A program made the position numbers and the translations under genes. Positions 5,292 through 50,171 of a DNA stretch of 64,000 nt are shown here, piece by piece. Position 1 is the first letter of the stretch. The number at the start of each line of letters is the position of its first letter. The notes beneath the pieces were generated by a model that did no database searches, was not told where the DNA came from, and worked only from the letters and a program-made list of their open reading frames with translations. Source of the DNA: Clostridium sp. Marseille-P3244 (lineage in GTDB: Bacteria > Bacillota > Clostridia > Lachnospirales > Lachnospiraceae); NCBI RefSeq assembly GCF_900120155.1, contig NZ_LT635549.1, forward strand, positions 2,388,688-2,452,687, written 5' to 3'.

Positions 5292-6346
5292 CTGAATTCT
5301 TTATATTCTTCGATGTGGATGTCCGCAAATGTCGCCATCTCCCGGTAAACGGACAGCCCCATCTCCAGAAGCGGCAGTACAGCCACCGCGCCGCTGCCCT
5401 CTCCCAGCGTCATGTTACAGTCAAGGAACGGGGACAGCCCCAGCGCGTCCAGAACCATCCCTCCTGCCGGTTCCCCGGACCGGTGGGACGGCAGCATATA
5501 ATCTGCCGCGTCCGGCGCCATCCGTGCGGCGCAGAGAGCGCCCACCGAGGAGATAAATCCGTCGACCACCACGGGAATGTGGTATATGGCGCCGCCCAGA
5601 AATACTCCGGCCAGTCCCGCAATATCCAGTCCTCCCACCTTTGAGAGCACATCCAGGACATCTTCCCGGCGGGGTTGGTGAAGCCGGATGGCCCGGCGGA
5701 TCGTTTCCGTCTTTCTGCGCAGTCCCTGGTCACTCAAACCGGCCCCCCGGCCTGTCACTTTCTCCGGATCACAGTCCAGCAGGACAGAGGCCACGGCGCT
5801 GCTGGTGGTGGTGTTCCCGATGCCCATCTCCCCGGTGGCCAGGATGTCATATCCCTGCTCCGAGAGTTCTCCGGCCAGCCGGATCCCGGTCAGAACGGCC
5901 TGCTCTGCCTGCTCTCTTGTCATGGCCGGCTCCCGTGCCATATTCCGGGTGCCGAAGGCCACCTTATACTCCGGCTTCGTAAGCCCGGGCACATCCACTG
6001 CCATGCCGATGTCCACGGGAAAAAGGTCCGCCCCCGCCACTTCAGACATCATACACACGCTTGCCGCATGCCGCGTGAAATTTTCCGCCACGACAGCCGT
6101 TACTTCCTGTCCGGTCTGGGTCACTCCTTCTTCCACCACCCCGTTGTCCGCGCACAGGATCACCAGTCCTTTTTTCTTAAGCACAACATCCGCAGTTTTG
6201 CGGATACCGGCGATCCGGATCACCGCGTCCTCCAGCTTCCCCAGGCTGAACAAAGGCTTTGCCACCGATTTCCAGCGCTTCCCGGCCTGCTCCATGGCGG
6301 CCGCATCAGCGCCTTTGATCTTTCCCAGTATTTCTTCCAATTTCAT
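5288..6346 (-). CDS. cobT: Nicotinate-nucleotide:dimethylbenzimidazole phosphoribosyltransferase CobT
   Basis: It activates the lower-ligand base to its alpha-ribotide. The ATG is chosen because GGGGAGG lies 7 nt upstream and the protein then starts MKLEEILGKIKGADAAAMEQ (352 residues, the usual size). Conserved parts include LVILCADNGVVEEGVTQ, GEMGIGNTTTSSAVA and a C-terminal LGEGSGAVAVLPL with the catalytic Glu region. It sits 1 nt after cbiA and overlaps cobS. The base actually used cannot be told from sequence; no bluB or bza genes are seen here. Confidence 0.96.
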   Translation of the reverse strand: MKLEEILGKIKGADAAAMEQAGKRWKSVAKPLFSLGKLEDAVIRIAGIRKTADVVLKKKGLVILCADNGVVEEGVTQTGQEVTAVVAENFTRHAASVCMMSEVAGADLFPVDIGMAVDVPGLTKPEYKVAFGTRNMAREPAMTREQAEQAVLTGIRLAGELSEQGYDILATGEMGIGNTTTSSAVASVLLDCDPEKVTGRGAGLSDQGLRRKTETIRRAIRLHQPRREDVLDVLSKVGGLDIAGLAGVFLGGAIYHIPVVVDGFISSVGALCAARMAPDAADYMLPSHRSGEPAGGMVLDALGLSPFLDCNMTLGEGSGAVAVLPLLEMGLSVYREMATFADIHIEEYKEFR

Positions 6347-18189: not shown

Positions 18190-18225
18190 ACCGGTCATAT
18201 CCCCGTAACCTCCAGACCCGGTTAA

Positions 18226-18455
18226 AAGTGAATATTCTGACTTAGGCGTCATCACAGACATCCCGCCTTCCCACAGGCTTGCCGCCCACAGTGACCTTCC
18301 GCTTTCCGGCTTTTGTCGTTTGGGACAAAAGACGCATCGCAGAAATGGGATGCTGCTCTTCCAATACAGCAACGGGTATTGTGCAGGATTCTCACCTGCT
18401 TCCTCGGCGGCCCTGCGCGTTTCGCACAGCAGCCACATTCTTTTAACCTGTATGC
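18226..18455 (-). promoter_or_regulatory. Cobalamin riboswitch (intercistronic, before cbiM)
   Basis: Read on the minus strand, the leader has GCAGGTGAGAATCCTGC (the conserved AGAATC region). Then comes the B12-box-like GGTCACTGTGGG, followed by GCCTGTGGGAAGGCGGG and GACGCCTAAGTCAGAATA, in the order of the cobalamin family. Adenosylcobalamin binding would shut off the cbi genes. The element starts only about 15 nt after the cobO stop, leaving no room for a separate promoter between them. Edges are approximate. Confidence 0.93.
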
Positions 18456-18467
18456 CGGATCTGGCTT

Positions 18468-42781: not shown

Positions 42782-43900
42782 TTATACTTCCAGCCTGGTG
42801 AGGCGCTCCCCCAGCCGGCTGAGGATCTCATTGGAGATGGTGTCCGCCTGTTCCGCCATTTCCTCCGCCGTCAATACAAGCTCTCCCGACCTTCCGATAA
42901 AGACCGCTTCATCCCCCGGCGCCGTACAGGGGATGTCCGTCACATCCGCTGTCAGCTGATCCATACAGATCCGTCCGATGACGGGCGCCTTCTGCCCCCG
43001 GATCAACACGTATCCCCTGTTGGAAAGATTCCGGGGGATCCCGTCCGCATATCCGGCTGCTATGATAGCTATCTTCCGTTCATCTCTAGCCGTATAGGTT
43101 AGTCCATATCCCGCCGATTCTCCCCGGGACAATTTCTTCACACATTCTACCCGCGCTTTCAGTGACAGAACCGGGCGCAGAGAGACATCCACCAGAACCT
43201 GATCCGACGGCGAGCTTAAGACTCCGTACAGGGCGATCCCCGGACGGGCACAGTCAAACCGCTCCTCCGGATAGTTCAGGATACCGTAGCTCCCCTGAAT
43301 GTGTGTTTCAAATCCCCGGATCCCTCTCCCGCGCAGCTGCCCTGCAAGCTTCCGGAATGACCGGAACTGCCGGCGGGTATAACATTTCTCTTCCTCTGTA
43401 CTTCCGTCGGAAACACAGAGATGAGAAAACATTCCCGTCACTCGCAGATTCGGAAAGGACCATACCGCCGCCACTGCATCCGGATCCTCTGCCGGAATCC
43501 CCAGCCGGTGCATTCCCGTATCCACTCCTACATGGACAAAGACAGGCCTGCCGTATCGGGACAGTCTGCGGGCATACCCGGCGTCCACCACAGTCTGTGT
43601 AAGCTGATATTCGCCAAGCTCATGGAACAGTTCCGGATCTGTATATCCCAGGATCAGGATCTGTCCGGTGATCCCGGCCTGGCGGAGCCGGATCCCCTCT
43701 TCCACAGACGCCACGCAGAAATCCCGGATCCCCTGTTCCTGCAGGATGCGGGATACAAGAATATCTCCGTGCCCGTAGGCATTTGCTTTCACCGCAGGCA
43801 TCAGCCTGCAGCTGTCTCCTGCGATCCTGCGGAACTCTTCTGTATTGTGGATCAGATTTTTCCTGCTGATCTCAGCCCAGGCCCTGCCTTCTTTGTACAT
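42782..43900 (-). CDS. alr: Alanine/serine racemase, soluble (vanT-like position)
   Basis: PLP enzyme producing D-alanine or D-serine. 372 residues from the ATG with GGAGG 9 nt upstream; an ATG two codons earlier is also possible. The PLP lysine is in LMPAVKANAYGHGDILVSR. The second catalytic Tyr lies in ESAGYGLTYTARD, and RICMDQLTADVT is conserved. It is the third gene after the VanG-type ligase and VanXY-type peptidase, where VanT serine racemase lies in vanG operons. It lacks the N-terminal membrane domain of VanT. D-Ser production is inferred. Confidence 0.92.
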   Translation of the reverse strand: MYKEGRAWAEISRKNLIHNTEEFRRIAGDSCRLMPAVKANAYGHGDILVSRILQEQGIRDFCVASVEEGIRLRQAGITGQILILGYTDPELFHELGEYQLTQTVVDAGYARRLSRYGRPVFVHVGVDTGMHRLGIPAEDPDAVAAVWSFPNLRVTGMFSHLCVSDGSTEEEKCYTRRQFRSFRKLAGQLRGRGIRGFETHIQGSYGILNYPEERFDCARPGIALYGVLSSPSDQVLVDVSLRPVLSLKARVECVKKLSRGESAGYGLTYTARDERKIAIIAAGYADGIPRNLSNRGYVLIRGQKAPVIGRICMDQLTADVTDIPCTAPGDEAVFIGRSGELVLTAEEMAEQADTISNEILSRLGERLTRLEV

Positions 43901-44441
43901 CTGCATACTCCTCCAGTACGATCTTCTGCTCCGTCATGATCACGGAATGGGGCAGCCCTACATACCGGAAATGCCACGGCTCGGCTCCGATCCCGGTCAC
44001 TGGTTCTTTTCCTTTCGGATACCTTTCGATAAATCCATAATAAGGCGCCTTCTTCCGAAATTCTCCGCATATTCCGGTGTATGGGAAACTGGGACAGATA
44101 AAGTCGATCTCCTCCGTATTTTCCGCCAGGTCTATGGCAAGCCCCGTCTCATGTTCGCTGCATCCCGGCAGCGCGACAAATTTTCTGGCAAACGCCTCCC
44201 CTCTCTCCCCGGCCGTCTCCCTCCAGATCTTCCGCTGTTCCTGTCTGGAACGCCAGCCGCTCACCGGGACAATGGCGCCTCCGCTTCGGATATCCCGCAG
44301 CAGGGCCTTAAGCGCCTCCGCGGCCGGACGTGCCATCCGGACATCCGGATAGTCCTCCGAAACACAGACAAGTTCTTCTTCCTTCACAGAATATCTGAGA
44401 GGATTCCTCGCATTGACAAGTACAAGAGCGTCTTCTGTCAT
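43872..44441 (-). CDS. vanXY: D,D-carboxypeptidase/dipeptidase of the VanY/VanXY family (M15)
   Basis: Zinc peptidase that removes D-Ala-ended dipeptides or terminal D-Ala. The 189-residue protein has the zinc motif GCSEHETGLAIDLAEN (SxHxxGxAxD) and the catalytic/zinc EPWHFRYVGLPHS. VSGWRSRQEQRKIW is the family N-motif. No signal peptide is seen, so it acts in the cytoplasm like VanXY. It overlaps the ligase by 4 nt and the racemase by about 30 nt, as one operon. Confidence 0.88.
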   Translation of the reverse strand: MTEDALVLVNARNPLRYSVKEEELVCVSEDYPDVRMARPAAEALKALLRDIRSGGAIVPVSGWRSRQEQRKIWRETAGERGEAFARKFVALPGCSEHETGLAIDLAENTEEIDFICPSFPYTGICGEFRKKAPYYGFIERYPKGKEPVTGIGAEPWHFRYVGLPHSVIMTEQKIVLEEYADVQRRQGLG

Positions 44442-45541
44442 TTTTCCACCTCCCGCTTTGTCTCCATCTCGATCAGACGGCTGATCAATGCCCTGAAAGA
44501 TATGCCCGCCGCCTTCAGCATCCCCGGATAACGGCTGTGTGCGGTAAACCCGGGAATGGTATTGACTTCGTTAAAGTAGATCTTTCCCTCCGGCGTAAGA
44601 AACATGTCCACTCTGGCAAAATCCCGGCACTTCAGCGCCCGGTATATAACGGCCGCGGCATGCCGGATCTCATCCGCCTTTTCCCTGGAAATGCGGGCGG
44701 GGACATGGATATCGGAAGTTTTCAGTGTGTATTTTTCTTCATAGTCAAAGAATCCTTCCGACAGCTCGATTTCATCCACTTCTCCGATGGTCAGGGTTTC
44801 ATTTCCCAGCACCGCGCATCCGACCTCGAATCCTCTGACCTCCTCCTCGAGAAGCACTTCCCGGTCATGCTCAAAAGCTGCCTCCACCGCAGGGAGCAGT
44901 TCCTCCGGAGCGCAGACCTTTGTAATGCCAAAGGAAGAGCCGGCGCGCACAGGCTTGACAAACAGCGGATATCCCAGTTTCTCTCCGGATGCCGCCACTT
45001 CTTTTGCGTCGTAAGGCTTTGTGATGACAGCGGAGTCCGCCACCGCAACGCCGGCCGCGGCCGCAACACGGTGAGCCAGCTCTTTGTCCATCCCTGCCGC
45101 AGAAGGAAGAACGCCGCACCCGATGACCGGAATATCGGCCAGTTCCAGCATACCCTGTACTGTACCGTCCTCCCCGTTTTTCCCATGCAGGACCGGAAAC
45201 GCCGCATCCACGGAAATCACGTCTGGTTTCCCTGCTTCCAGAAAACACAGTCCATGGACGGTCCGGTCTGTAGACACGTATACCGGCGTACAGGTCTCCT
45301 CAGAATACCATCTGTCCTCCGGGATCATTTCCGGCTCTCCCCGGTACAGATACCACTGCCCCGTGTCCCGGCAGATGCCGATCATCAGCACTTCATAAAG
45401 CGCCGTGTCAATGTTCGTAATGACCGCGTAGGCGGACTGGAGGGAGACCTCGTACTCCGTGGAACATCCCCCGAACAGGACCGCGATCTTCTTTTTCCCG
45501 CCGGTTTTCTCATTGCCGATTTCCTGATTGCTGCTTTTCAT
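44438..45541 (-). CDS. vanG: VanG-type D-alanine:D-serine (or D-alanine) ligase
   Basis: ATP-grasp ligase that makes the depsipeptide/dipeptide end of peptidoglycan precursors. The ATG after AAAGGAG gives 367 residues. KIAVLFGGCSTEYEVSLQSA, FPVLHGKNGEDGTVQGMLEL, FVKPVRAGSSFGITKV, VDEIELSEGFFDYEEKYTLK and FNEVNTIPGFTAHSRYP follow the Enterococcus VanG protein closely. The omega-loop EKYTLKT is VanG-like rather than VanA-like. D-Ser use is inferred; a plain D-Ala-D-Ala ligase remains possible. Confidence 0.9.
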   Translation of the reverse strand: MKSSNQEIGNEKTGGKKKIAVLFGGCSTEYEVSLQSAYAVITNIDTALYEVLMIGICRDTGQWYLYRGEPEMIPEDRWYSEETCTPVYVSTDRTVHGLCFLEAGKPDVISVDAAFPVLHGKNGEDGTVQGMLELADIPVIGCGVLPSAAGMDKELAHRVAAAAGVAVADSAVITKPYDAKEVAASGEKLGYPLFVKPVRAGSSFGITKVCAPEELLPAVEAAFEHDREVLLEEEVRGFEVGCAVLGNETLTIGEVDEIELSEGFFDYEEKYTLKTSDIHVPARISREKADEIRHAAAVIYRALKCRDFARVDMFLTPEGKIYFNEVNTIPGFTAHSRYPGMLKAAGISFRALISRLIEMETKREVEK

Positions 45542-45897
45542 TTGTATCTTCTCCTTTTCCAGATCTTTGACAGACGCCGTCCGACTCACTGCGATCAGCG
45601 CCGGCGCAGCTGTCCTCTATATAAAAAGAATAGACTTGCGGGATTAATGTTTTTGAAGGAACTGGTGATATTTTTATTGATAAATCTTTAAGATTTTTTT
45701 AATCGACAAGAGATTTCTTAAAATACGGTGCATTGCCTCGCCTTCAGGCTCCATTACCCATTGTTAGATTTATGCCAAATAAATAGTGGCGTTATGCTTA
45801 TAATTCGTCAATCATATTCAGCATATTGTTCACATATAATATTCGTTATAGTAATATTCATTTATAGAGATGAAATAATGAATTTGGGCTTAAAAGA

Positions 45898-45928: not shown

Positions 45929-46141
45929 ATGATAATTATATTGAATAAAACAGAAATAGCGCTCCTGATCAATACAGAAATACATTTCGAGCGGAAAAAA
46001 GAGTACAGCGATGATGAGGCATTTGATTTGCTGGATAAAGTTTATGAGAGAGAGGTATTTTTTGTGCAGGATGGTAACAGTCAGAAAGCAGCTGCCTATG
46101 CCGACCTTGCAGATAAAATTCAGGAGCAAATACCTGACTGA
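45929..46141 (+). CDS. Hypothetical 70-residue protein
   Basis: It begins MIIILNKTEIALLINTEIHF and ends ADLADKIQEQIPD. The sequence is acidic and helical, with balanced codon use unlike a shadow frame. No signal or membrane segment is seen. The ribosome-binding site is weak. It lies just upstream of the candidate type I toxin on the same strand and in the same low-G+C patch, so it may be acquired DNA. Function unknown. Confidence 0.5.
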   Translation: MIIILNKTEIALLINTEIHFERKKEYSDDEAFDLLDKVYEREVFFVQDGNSQKAAAYADLADKIQEQIPD

Positions 46142-46263
46142 TACAAGCAAAATACCGAATAGACGGTCGAAAATTCAACGGCTGCACATTGACAATAATA
46201 TACTTACCCAGGGAGCCGATGAGACGCTATACCAGCCACCCAGCAGAAAGGGGGTTGGTGCTT

Positions 46264-46350
46264 ATGATAACATGGTCTGACTTATTCAGCTTTGTCATTA
46301 TGCTTTGCGCAGTTATTACCCTTGTTCTCAATAACAGACGCAAAAAATAG
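46264..46350 (+). CDS. 28-residue membrane peptide, candidate type I toxin (holin-like)
   Basis: The reading is MITWSDLFSFVIMLCAVITL followed by VLNNRRKK. One hydrophobic helix ends in a basic tail, as in Fst/TxpA/holin-like toxin peptides. An AAAGGGGG ribosome-binding site lies about 10 nt upstream. The 3' end and untranslated tail overlap a convergent small RNA. Its 5' leader is complementary to its own 3' region, as in type I toxin mRNAs. Confidence 0.6.
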   Translation: MITWSDLFSFVIMLCAVITLVLNNRRKK

Positions 46351-46435
46351 CGCCCCCACTCTGGTAAAGTAAGGCGCTATTAGCAGTACATATTGCCGGG
46401 TGGCCAGGTGTACGCTGGCTATCGGCTCCCTTGTT
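46341..46435 (-). ncRNA. Candidate antisense antitoxin RNA of the 28-residue toxin
   Basis: A near-perfect promoter lies on the minus strand: TTGACA (46,465-46,470), 17 bp, TATAAT (46,442-46,447). The expected transcript starts near 46,435. It ends after the stem AATAGCGCC (46,373-46,381 as template) and GGCGCTATT (46,346-46,354 as template), followed by T6. It is therefore about 95 nt long and covers the toxin stop codon and 3' tail. Confidence 0.6.
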
Positions 46436-46441
46436 AAGTAT

Positions 46442-46470
46442 ATTATAGACAATATTTCAATATGTGTCAA
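46442..46470 (-). promoter_or_regulatory. Promoter of the candidate antitoxin RNA
   Basis: TTGACA and TATAAT with a 17-bp spacer, consensus in all twelve bases. The sense leader near 46,194 has a related -10 (AATAAT) but a poor -35, so the antisense RNA should be made in excess. Confidence 0.7.
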
Positions 46471-46516
46471 ATGATATCTCCCATTGATCCCCGCCGTTCC
46501 TGGGCAGGATCTTATT

Positions 46517-48580: not shown

Positions 48581-50171
48581 TTAATTACTCTCTCCTTCAT
48601 CAATCTTCTTTAATCTCGCCAGAAAATCATAAGTCTCTTCATAAACCTTATTATTTTTCAGGTCATCCAAATCTTTTATCCCGTTTCCATTTGGATCATT
48701 AAATTCAATTCTTTCAAACACAGCGGCCTCTACTTCTTCATACGGATTATTTTTCAGGAACTCTTTTGTACGACCTGCATTTTCTCCCTGGGGATCTTTA
48801 CTGATATCCGAATAATACTCATTGACCGCGTCTGCCAGCCTCGTCTTTTTCGTTACTCTTTTAGCAATATTGTCTGCATCCAGATCTGCAATATAATCAT
48901 CTTCTCCAAAAGAGGTTTTATATTCATCTCCTTTATAGACAGCATCTCCGAGCCATCCGACAATATCTTTTCGTTCGCCTTTTGTTGCCCATGACATACC
49001 CTGAGCGCCCCAGTTATTCCAAACATTATCAACTTTATGGCCTTTATCTATTAAATTAGCAGAAACTGTATACATCATATGTGAAAAATCTTCTTTTGAA
49101 CCCATTTGAATATAAAGTTGTTTATAAAAATCTTTGTACTCACTATCGGAATAGCTTCTTCCCATTGCTTGCTCCATTGTTTTTTCCATTCATTAAAATG
49201 TTCCTTATTTTTTCTTGAAAGCATTTCTAATCCATTATAACTGTATTGCTCTGGATCGCTGGTCATAAAATGCTGCAGACGCACCATCTGACGTATGTAT
49301 TTATAATCTCCTTCGCTCAATCCCAGCTTTTTACAGAAGAACTCTTCTTCCTCGTCATATTTATAAGCCCAGCCGGCGCCTTTCCTCCATGCATGCGTTT
49401 CTACCGAAAAGAACAGGATTTTTACCGGTTTATCATTATAGTCCCCAATTGGCTGATCGCTCTGACAAAATACCAGTCTCTTTCCTTCTGAGGCAGATCC
49501 GCATACAGCTTCTGGACGGCTTCGTATATATCCCACAGGATATCGACCGTCCGGTCATCGAACCCGAACTGTTCTTTCATATTCTTTTTAAACATTTCTT
49601 CCGTAGTCCCGCTGCCTTTCGTGCTCAGCGGCAGGACTTTTACTCCCAGAGTACTGTCATAGACTGCTGTGTGCAGCAGATTTACGGCCTGCTGCATGGC
49701 GGACACGTCAACCCCCGAATATACGCTGCCGCTGGCAGACACAAAGGCATAGAGCCGCTCCAGCTTGTTCCGCCGGTTCTGCTCCAGTTCCGCCAGAAGG
49801 CCCTCATAGGCATACAGCTGCAGCCTCTCTGCCATCCCGCGAAGATACTGAATCTGGTTCAGCTGGTCGATCAGGACATCTTCATTGACTTCCGACTCTC
49901 CCGGCAGATATTCATCGAGCAGGGCGATATGCTGCTCATTCGCCCGCATGAATTCCCGTATAACCGTCTTCTGAGCGCGCACCGCGGCAAGATGTCCCCG
50001 CTGCATATAGTCTTTGGAAGCAGTATATGCTTCACCCTGCAGTCCTTCTTCTCCTGCGTATGAGGCAATGCTCTCCTCATATGGAACGGCCAGCTCCATC
50101 ATCTCCGCGAGCCTTTTATTTAGTGCTCTCAGGCCGGCTTCCAGCTCATAAGTCCTTACATAATATCCCAT
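48581..50171 (-). pseudogene. LXG polymorphic toxin (TelC-like), broken by two single-base frameshifts
   Basis: The three fragments (49,422-50,171; about 49,190-49,440; 48,581-49,180) join into one protein of about 530 residues if one G is added in the G4 run at 49,443-49,446 and one A in the A6 run at 49,180-49,185. The N-terminal ~215 residues form a helical LXG domain (MGYYVRTYELEAGLRALNK, with LQG). The C-terminal domain has MMYTVSANLIDKGHKVDNVW and the Asp-rich GEDDYIADLDADNI, like the TelC lipid II phosphatase. Such toxins leave by the Esx (type VII) system. It could be a real pseudogene, a phase-variable gene or an assembly error. Confidence 0.75.

Follow-up and report, generated by a model that had tools for sequence, protein, structure and literature searches.

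Described Type I Systems and the Present Locus

The available part of PMC6562991 describes systems like txpA and bsrG as known only in one Paenibacillus and a small number of Bacillus species. In the bsrG/SR4 pair, a YUNR loop of the toxin mRNA is stated there to be the first to contact the terminator loop of the antitoxin, and the processing of long inactive toxin mRNAs is given in the same text as known from Gram-negative bacteria. TxpA, BsrG and SprG1 are reported to be toxic (accessible sections of PMC6562991 and PMC8309996). TxpA-like and Fst-like sequences have been noticed in Clostridium bolteae, according to the accessible section of PMC6563280, and this TxpA-like sequence was the only item on type I modules in Lachnospiraceae that the literature search retrieved; the accessible text of PMC11318856 and PMC11264685 is not on this family. 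Within that search, whose scope left most subscription papers and T1TAdb outside, neither a description of the present subfamily nor the core letters of its peptide were found.

The locus considered here lies in a window of 64,000 nucleotides, the whole stretch analysed, from Clostridium sp. Marseille-P3244 (contig NZ_LT635549.1). Positions 46188-46470 of the window hold a compact two-gene unit made up of a 28-aa ORF on the plus strand, a promoter and a terminator on the minus strand, and an inverted repeat. We read it as a type I toxin-antitoxin module from the superfamily that includes TxpA, BsrG, Hol_Tox and PepG1. It would represent a compact subfamily, centred on Lachnospiraceae, that stays under the cut-offs of Pfam and Rfam; we put the probability of this reading at about 0.8. 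An earlier sequence-only reading had proposed a type I module with a convergent antisense RNA; conservation and covariation support this proposal, the antisense RNA being predicted solely from its conserved promoter and terminator signals.

Layout of the Unit and Its Inverted Repeat

The putative toxin promoter has a -10 element (AATAAT, 46194-46199, plus strand) that mirrors the antisense -10 across the inverted repeat and is without a recognisable -35. The plus strand then carries the 5' leader arm of a leader-tail clamp (46204-46221), which in helix S1 faces the 3' tail arm (46437-46420) and is mismatched in the window copy at 46207 and 46209. It is followed by an anti-Shine-Dalgarno arm (46231-46237), which pairs with 46253-46259 in helix S2 and is backed by covariation, RNAalifold and a wobble strand test. 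The Shine-Dalgarno (SD) region AAAGGGGG (46247-46259, plus strand), whose part 46253-46259 is the 3' arm of S2, stands at a spacing of nine bases from the start of the putative toxin ORF (46264-46350, plus strand; 28 aa), and the TAG stop of this ORF falls within the stem of the antisense terminator, whose U tract is supplied by the Lys-Lys codons. That terminator is hairpin S3 (46346-46381, both strands), in which 46346-46354 pairs with 46373-46381 at the stop around an 18-nt loop showing CUGG, a YUNR motif, on the sense strand. Tail hairpin S4 (46403-46419, both strands; 46403-46407 with 46415-46419), likewise seen by covariation and RNAalifold but with a wobble bias short of significance, precedes the tail arm of the clamp (46420-46437, plus strand), whose minus-strand reading supplies the predicted antisense RNA with its 5' end. 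This putative antitoxin RNA of about 95 nt would span 46340-46436 on the minus strand, with its ends placed by the terminator and by the promoter TTGACA-17-TATAAT (46442-46470, minus strand).

The near identity of the sense leader and the antisense start, remarked on in the sequence-only reading, is borne out by an inverted repeat of 33 nt and 88% complementarity that joins 46188-46220 with 46421-46453 and connects both 5' ends. Since the repeats are inverted, the toxin RNA and the antisense RNA start with the same sequence. The comparison with par/Fst-like systems made in that reading does not hold up. A par/Fst-type module would indeed have convergent overlapping RNAs with a terminator between them, but its direct repeats make both RNAs complementary, whereas the repeats here are inverted; moreover, no Fst model is among the peptide-profile matches of the window peptide and 70 family members, and the antisense terminator stem here includes the stop codon. 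We consider a par/Fst-type module extremely improbable.

The Peptide and Its Kinship

Translation confirms the 28-residue hydrophobic peptide with a basic tail (RRKK) that had been read from the window, and the peptide is single-copy in the own genome of 2.97 Mb. The consensus in relatives is MVTYSDLFxFVIMLCAVITLV followed by a variable stretch and KK, the latter standing at the C-terminus of 127 of 141 distinct peptides. Over codons 2-21 the median dN/dS is 0.16 (92 of 120 pairs usable, 28 saturated), and identity falls from 87% at second and 75% at first codon positions to 52% at third positions in the same 16 units. These values were computed on 16 alignment rows that had come from similarity searches only, a restriction made because pattern-selected loci are biased to the core letters. 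Judged by these substitution patterns, the peptide is under purifying selection and its reading frame, on whose conservation in relatives the sequence-only reading had made its proposal depend, is conserved. It is a small hydrophobic peptide with a charged C terminus that is kept as a protein, as is expected of a type I toxin.

The window peptide passed no Pfam or NCBIfam cut-off. Hol_Tox (PF16935, cut-off 23.3 bits) was not listed for it in a search whose HMMER filters remove most matches weaker than E 0.1, and neither was PepG1 (NF041589, cut-off 70 bits). At E ≤ 0.1, Hol_Tox matches 27 of 70 family members (best 1e-4) and PepG1 17 of 70 (best 0.0014), and a PHROG labelled holin matches 22 of 70. 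The best Hol_Tox score within the subfamily is 22.5 bits among ten proteins scanned; a distant relative found by the peptide profile (L217) reaches 30.2 bits against Hol_Tox, above the cut-off, and 26.8 bits (E 2.8e-6) against the 70 required for PepG1. A search of solved structures returned one chain, 7ns1 (E 0.18, labelled 'Snterotoxin A' in the table), which we take to be the S. aureus PepG1 peptide. Unrelated membrane families attain similar E-values, namely SidA in 6 of 70 members (best 0.002), Heimdall-CTERM in 9 of 70 and BcsF in 4 of 70; the Hol_Tox and PepG1 matches are therefore treated as leads, and for so short a membrane peptide weak profile hits prove little alone.

Some of the near models are not addiction toxins: besides SidA they include ComI (E 0.0013 in the family and 6.5e-5 for L217), all below cut-off. 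They would suit a small conserved hydrophobic membrane peptide, controlled by an antisense attenuator and harmless at its native level, such as a signalling or stress peptide. However, the strong antisense and weak sense promoters, the SD stem, the basic tail and the integrase neighbours (10 of 85) make up the usual set of a type I toxin-antitoxin module, and toxicity is reported for TxpA, BsrG and SprG1, which belong to the same superfamily, in the accessible sections of PMC6562991 and PMC8309996. A non-toxic peptide thus appears improbable to us.

Promoters and Terminators

The collection of relatives comprises 158 units after duplicate removal, including the window's own and one misplaced frame (L187). 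Subsets of 150 units with enough flank served for promoters, 151 for the repeat score, 147 for sense terminators and 145 for hairpins, and 143 units were reduced to 57 at 80% identity and then to 47 in alignment A1.

The minus-strand consensus promoter named in the sequence-only reading (46470-46442) matches the consensus at 12 of 12 positions and is conserved in relatives. A 2-kb scan gave five sites of at least 9/12, the other four at 9/12 (shuffles: mean 3.4). The best antisense promoter scores at least 10/12 in 135 of 150 units, whereas the opposite strand of this region attains that score in 2 of 150. When each -10 was located before its -35 was sought, 141 of 150 units had a perfect antisense -10 and 134 of 150 an antisense -35 of at least 4/6. 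On the toxin side, a -10 of at least 5/6 is present in 133 of 150 units, and no -35 rises above background across the family (at least 4/6 in 25 of 150 units vs. 20 of 150 with letters shuffled). Type I systems usually pair a strong antitoxin promoter with a weak toxin promoter.

The intrinsic terminator on the minus strand was also read correctly: a stem at 46374-46354 with a U tract overlaps the stop codon, the scan giving three terminator-like sites vs. 1.9 in shuffled sequence. A hairpin of at least 7 perfect pairs stands at the stop codon in 128 of the 145 units examined, and the remaining 17 gave no hairpin of that size. In nearly all hairpin-bearing units the stem starts before or within the stop codon, and the antisense U tract is the A tract coding for Lys-Lys (mean 6.1 A in 9). 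Conserved sequence signals thus point to an antisense RNA gene that overlaps the toxin gene and has its own promoter and terminator. For the sense RNA, a strict scan (a perfect stem of at least 5 and 6 T in 8) at ATG+190 to +320 found a terminator past the tail in 4 of 147 units (shuffled 0.4).

RNA Folding and Covariation

The plus-strand RNA 46203-46460 is predicted to fold with -90.4 kcal/mol vs. -69.8 ± 4.4 for shuffled sequence (z -4.6), its leader pairing with its tail; the folding of the antisense RNA alone is not unusual (z -1.5, 18 of 200 shuffles being as good). The four helices S1 to S4 were tested for covariation in A1, whose 47 units are at most 80% alike. Ten of the 57 units, with a visibly diverged or lost leader or tail, were omitted, which favours high pairing figures, and four rows without a recognisable leader arm (L182, L140, L083 and L088) were retained. 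The helices are paired in 90.9% of cells, compared with 82.2% for shuffled partners, and double-changed cells number 160 vs. 43.8 in shuffles and 18-32 in slid controls; the slid control flatters the structure because the latter was first drawn from the window sequence. Changes on both sides are seen in 29 of 39 pairs over the four helices. RNAalifold, given the same alignment only, returned the same four helices, S1 being interrupted in five columns, together with two further short helices inside the ORF.

In S1 the pair 46220-46421 is U-A in 20 units and A-U in 17, and 46219-46422 is A-U in 26, U-A in 9, G-C in 3 and C-G in 1, whereas 46207-46434 and 46209-46432 are mostly unpaired across units. 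The leader-to-tail pairing has a median predicted probability of 0.91 in the full-length RNA and exceeds 0.5 in 43 of 47 units, and the unpaired probability of 46209-46220 is calculated to drop from about 0.5 to 0.09 when the clamp forms. A clear leader-tail repeat is present in 137 of 151 units, the other 14 scoring below 24; shuffled tails attained the same repeat score in 1 of 151. By these comparisons the four helices covary, the leader with the 3' tail among them, and we consider the comparative evidence for the RNA fold to be strong. The folding of the toxin mRNA leader onto its 3' tail, as suggested by the sequence-only reading, is supported by conservation and covariation.

Which Strand Folds

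Where a G-U preserves a pair in one strand, the opposite strand has an A-C clash, so wobble changes can tell the strands apart. Events come from a parsimony count over a tree built for the 47 units, and the p values are uncorrected. Sense events outnumber antisense events by 40 to 12 in S1 (p 1e-4) and by 25 to 8 in the SD stem S2 (p 0.005), and the bias of S4, 10 to 3, is not significant (p 0.09). S3 shows the opposite, 7 to 18 (p 0.04), mostly owing to one pair (11 of 20 A-C cells at 46354-46373). Transitions in the ORF are balanced (C/T 244, A/G 221), which argues against a mutational cause of the bias. Among the 137 clear-repeat units, the leader-tail repeat has 609 sense-wobble and 161 antisense-wobble cells among its mismatches, a count in which fixed positions weigh heavily. 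The leader-tail and SD stems therefore appear to be placed in the sense RNA, where the clamp seems to be selected, and S3 appears to lean to the antisense RNA and to be selected mainly as the antisense terminator. If the clamp is selected in the sense RNA, that RNA must be transcribed through the antisense promoter.

These figures also bear on a different account of the same toxin-antitoxin module, in which the toxin mRNA ends at S3, a shared bidirectional terminator, and the leader-tail repeat works at the DNA level as a duplicated promoter with a shared regulator site that keeps the promoters alike. Both -10 elements do lie inside the repeat, hardly any later sense terminator is found, and many relatives have a sense U tract after S3, weaker than that of the antisense side (mean 5.2 T in 9 vs. 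6.1). In the window itself this tract is poor (3 T in 9), though. Moreover, the arms change together between loci, with two-sided changes in 12 of 18 leader-tail pairs, where one fixed site would be expected to stay the same, and their mismatches are biased to sense G-U in contrast to those of S3. An mRNA end at S3 is in our view unlikely, if the least unlikely of the alternatives, and a toxin mRNA that runs on into the tail and is closed by the clamp is preferred.

The predicted unpaired probability of the SD has medians of 0.44-0.47 wherever the RNA is made to end (just past the AUG, at the end of the ORF, behind S3 or behind the tail). As the SD is predicted to be equally exposed with or without the tail, the clamp would not mask it directly, and a direct SD mask in the manner of aapA or hok is not favoured by this thermodynamic prediction. 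The AUG is calculated to go from 0.42 to 0.08 unpaired once the ORF is present.

The S3 loop shows CUGG in 31 of 47 units vs. 2.3 in shuffled loops, and any YUNR in 46 of 47 vs. 33. Inspection of 20 loops by eye (46355-46372 in the window) revealed a three-base inner stem around a near-constant CUGGUAA; it varies and is often complementary (ACU/AGU, GUC/GAU, GGU/ACU), though AGC/ACU of L060 is not. This variable inner stem could set the specificity between copies.

Relation to the BsrG RNA

No Rfam family matches the unit at gathering thresholds. BsrG RNA (RF01412, gathering cut-off 55 bits) falls short of its threshold with 24.4 bits at 46221-46357, an E-value of 5e-4 for 351 bases. At E ≤ 0.1 it is seen in 2 of 8 family loci searched, the window unit and L028 (23.6 bits), and at E ≤ 1 in 2 of 8 distant loci (L232 and L216). 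In another family of the phylum, BsrG matches 8 of 54 genomes at E ≤ 0.001, none over the cut-off and the best at 44.8 bits; among five genomes there with peptide matches, the BsrG match coincides in position with the peptide in G863 and G998 but not in G693, G738 and G810.

The BsrG consensus RNA has an outermost 5'-3' helix, an SD stem and a final GC-rich hairpin. The present units share the SD stem and the outer helix between the 5' leader and the 3' part, and a terminator-like site after the 3' arm was found by the strict scan in only 4 of 147 units. Read against this model, the clamp is a BsrG-type feature, here located at the start of the antitoxin gene and lacking the final hairpin. By profile comparison the nearest relatives of the subfamily are the Hol_Tox/TxpA/PepG1 peptides and the BsrG RNA, and the subfamily is marked, as far as the sequence signals go, by the want of a recognisable toxin terminator and by an antitoxin promoter that abuts the 3' clamp arm of the toxin. 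The remark of the sequence-only reading that the peptide and the RNA match nothing it could name is therefore right at curated cut-offs and less so at the level of the superfamily.

Leader/Antisense Resemblance in Distant Loci

A set of 27 more distant loci comprised three of the same family (L216, L220 and L222) and 24 from elsewhere in the order, class or phylum. In 16 of the 27 the resemblance between leader and antisense side scores at least 30, compared with 0.6% of shuffles and 13% of mismatched locus pairs; L215, with a stop in frame, was left out. Wobble in these loci is 46:14. In some of them (e.g. L224, L225 and L227) the resemblance includes promoter sequence. As quite different leaders show it, the two arms appear to change together.

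Two Hol_Tox units of the own genome were considered apart from this set. One (L001, C3:426847) is a second unit of this design, with ACAACCG and GTGGYTGACCTC in common and a score of 30. The other (L002, C3:423593) has no leader/antisense resemblance (score 18) and looks like a broken remnant whose antisense side has been replaced by other sequence.

We tentatively suggest, as a possibility and no firmer than that, a role for these twin 5' ends in the subfamily and apparently in many distant relatives. The toxin transcript would run through the antitoxin promoter, the antitoxin RNA would start with a copy of the toxin leader, and the clamp would pair the leader with the complement of that start, so that the antitoxin would compete strand for strand with the leader and invade the clamp. 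Ribosomes might in addition be engaged by the purine-rich element that both 5' ends share, in parallel to what is reported for SprF1, and the specificity of the several copies in one genome might come from the co-evolving arms and the loop stems.

Distribution and Genomic Surroundings

The sample of the same family comprised 299 genomes, one per genus and with the own genome among them. Peptide matches at E ≤ 0.01 occur in 42 of these, and in 34 they also satisfy E ≤ 1e-4. At the DNA level 50 match at E ≤ 0.001, 32 of them over at least 100 bases, and the other 18 matches are short, mostly promoter ends or the stop-codon hairpin. The core pattern occurs in at least 118 stretches of named GTDB genomes. 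Among the matches listed, 50 of 80 GTDB titles name Lachnospiraceae and 14 carry other or vague names; a further 16 name genera (Blautia, Roseburia, Mediterraneibacter and others) that we take to be placed in Lachnospiraceae. Four genomes (G114, G264, G183 and G214) have three or four units each. A tandem of two units, related to each other yet distinct and separated by about 400 bases, was seen at L068 (G296:C1:255900-257900); one of them is akin to the window unit and the other has a MYVTYSDLF peptide. In wider samples, each with the own genome counted in, a 70-sequence peptide profile matches 19 of 391 genomes for the class and 11 of 398 for the phylum.

Nine viral contigs bear the core pattern, so some copies travel. 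As for a phage or plasmid gene, both were rejected: a search with the peptide gave a single match (E 3) among 50,697 phage records and no match up to E 10 among 72,556 plasmid records, and the peptide of the distant relative L232 matches nothing in either set at E ≤ 0.1. Flanking ORFs of relatives include Phage_integrase in 10 of 85 and HTH_3 in 8 of 85 (85 of 148 listed ORFs, aligned then scanned; the figures have no background rate), which suggests carriage of these copies on integrative elements.

The window unit itself stands in a chromosomal stretch between genes for a D-Ala-D-Ala-type ligase and a dicarboxylate symporter. Conserved synteny was rejected: in 241 fetched loci, many short or overlapping, the ligase is beside the unit only in L101, and the symporter and a 70-aa ORF in none. 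This ORF (45929-46141, plus strand) lies directly upstream of the unit on the same strand and has no Pfam or NCBIfam match. Genes for alanine racemase, a VanY-type carboxypeptidase and the D-Ala-D-Ala-type ligase follow in a row at 42782-45589 (minus strand), an order that to us recalls vanG-like clusters. Elsewhere in the window, 49422-50171 (minus strand) encodes a protein with an LXG domain (Pfam LXG 31.3 bits, cut-off 26.5), a domain usual in type VII-secreted proteins, and 18210-18459 (minus strand) is a cobalamin riboswitch (45.9 bits), the only Rfam match in the window at gathering thresholds.

In L137, two CRISPR-like repeats with a single 30-nt spacer (6228-6329) adjoin the promoter side of the unit. 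The repeats match Rfam CRISPR-DR22 with 31.7 bits, below the cut-off of 50, and the spacer matches the toxin leader not beyond shuffles. The layout recalls the C. difficile type I modules beside CRISPR arrays that the accessible section of PMC6563280 mentions. A scan for CRISPR-like arrays near units gave a single set of repeats, located in L155 at a distance of 2.8 kb from its unit; the scan required at least three copies and is thus blind to two-repeat arrays.

Proposed Mechanism and Comparison with Known Systems

In the proposed mechanism, the strong antisense promoter would keep the antitoxin RNA in excess. Its terminator loop would contact the complementary CUGG loop of the toxin mRNA, in the order known for bsrG/SR4, and pairing may then spread through the 3' tail and open the clamp, after which the duplex would be cut in an RNase III-like manner, as reported for txpA/RatA and bsrE/SR5. 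In the intact mRNA the clamp would close the 5' leader, probably protecting both ends and hiding the leader from the entry of ribosomes or nucleases. Once the antitoxin is lost, the toxin would be made and act at the membrane.

Compared with bsrG/SR4 of the B. subtilis prophage SPbeta, the unit is alike in the local SD stem, the outer 5'-3' helix, the convergent antisense RNA over the 3' part and the YUNR loop on the sense RNA (accessible part of PMC6562991). The bsrG Rfam model, however, ends in a GC-rich hairpin, read as the toxin terminator, of which the strict scan finds almost none in the present subfamily. The peptide has 28 aa here vs. 38 in bsrG, and the antitoxin would have about 95 nt, SR4 being 180 nt long. 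Furthermore, the SD stem of bsrG grows from 4 bp to 8 bp when SR4 binds, while here the predicted SD exposure is unaffected by removal of the tail. The txpA/RatA pair of the B. subtilis skin element likewise has a 3'-overlapping antisense RNA and a hydrophobic peptide; TxpA belongs to Hol_Tox, and PF16935 also matches in B. subtilis, whereas the present peptide is below the Pfam cut-off. In S. aureus sprG1/SprF1 (PepG1, NF041589), SprF1 has a purine-rich 5' end according to the accessible text of PMC8158120, as does the antisense RNA predicted here (AAGRGAG), but the present peptides stay below the PepG1 cut-off. With aapA/IsoA and hok/Sok the unit would share a toxin mRNA closed by a 5'-3' long-distance interaction (accessible text of PMC6733600); in those systems the closure hides the SD, and the mRNA becomes active through trimming at its 3' end, whereas the SD exposure predicted here is independent of the tail.

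These comparisons describe a type I toxin-antitoxin subfamily, unnamed in the libraries searched, in about one ninth of the sampled genera of Lachnospiraceae (34 of 299, peptide E ≤ 1e-4, own included), a family of abundant gut commensals. They also provide strand-resolved comparative evidence for a Gram-positive toxin mRNA being kept as a 5'-3' closed loop, the 3' arm of which would be the start of the toxin's own antitoxin gene. The role of the BsrG-type outer helix thereby becomes testable in many natural variants. In general, the module is most likely of BsrG/TxpA rather than par/Fst descent, and it appears to be frequent in its family.
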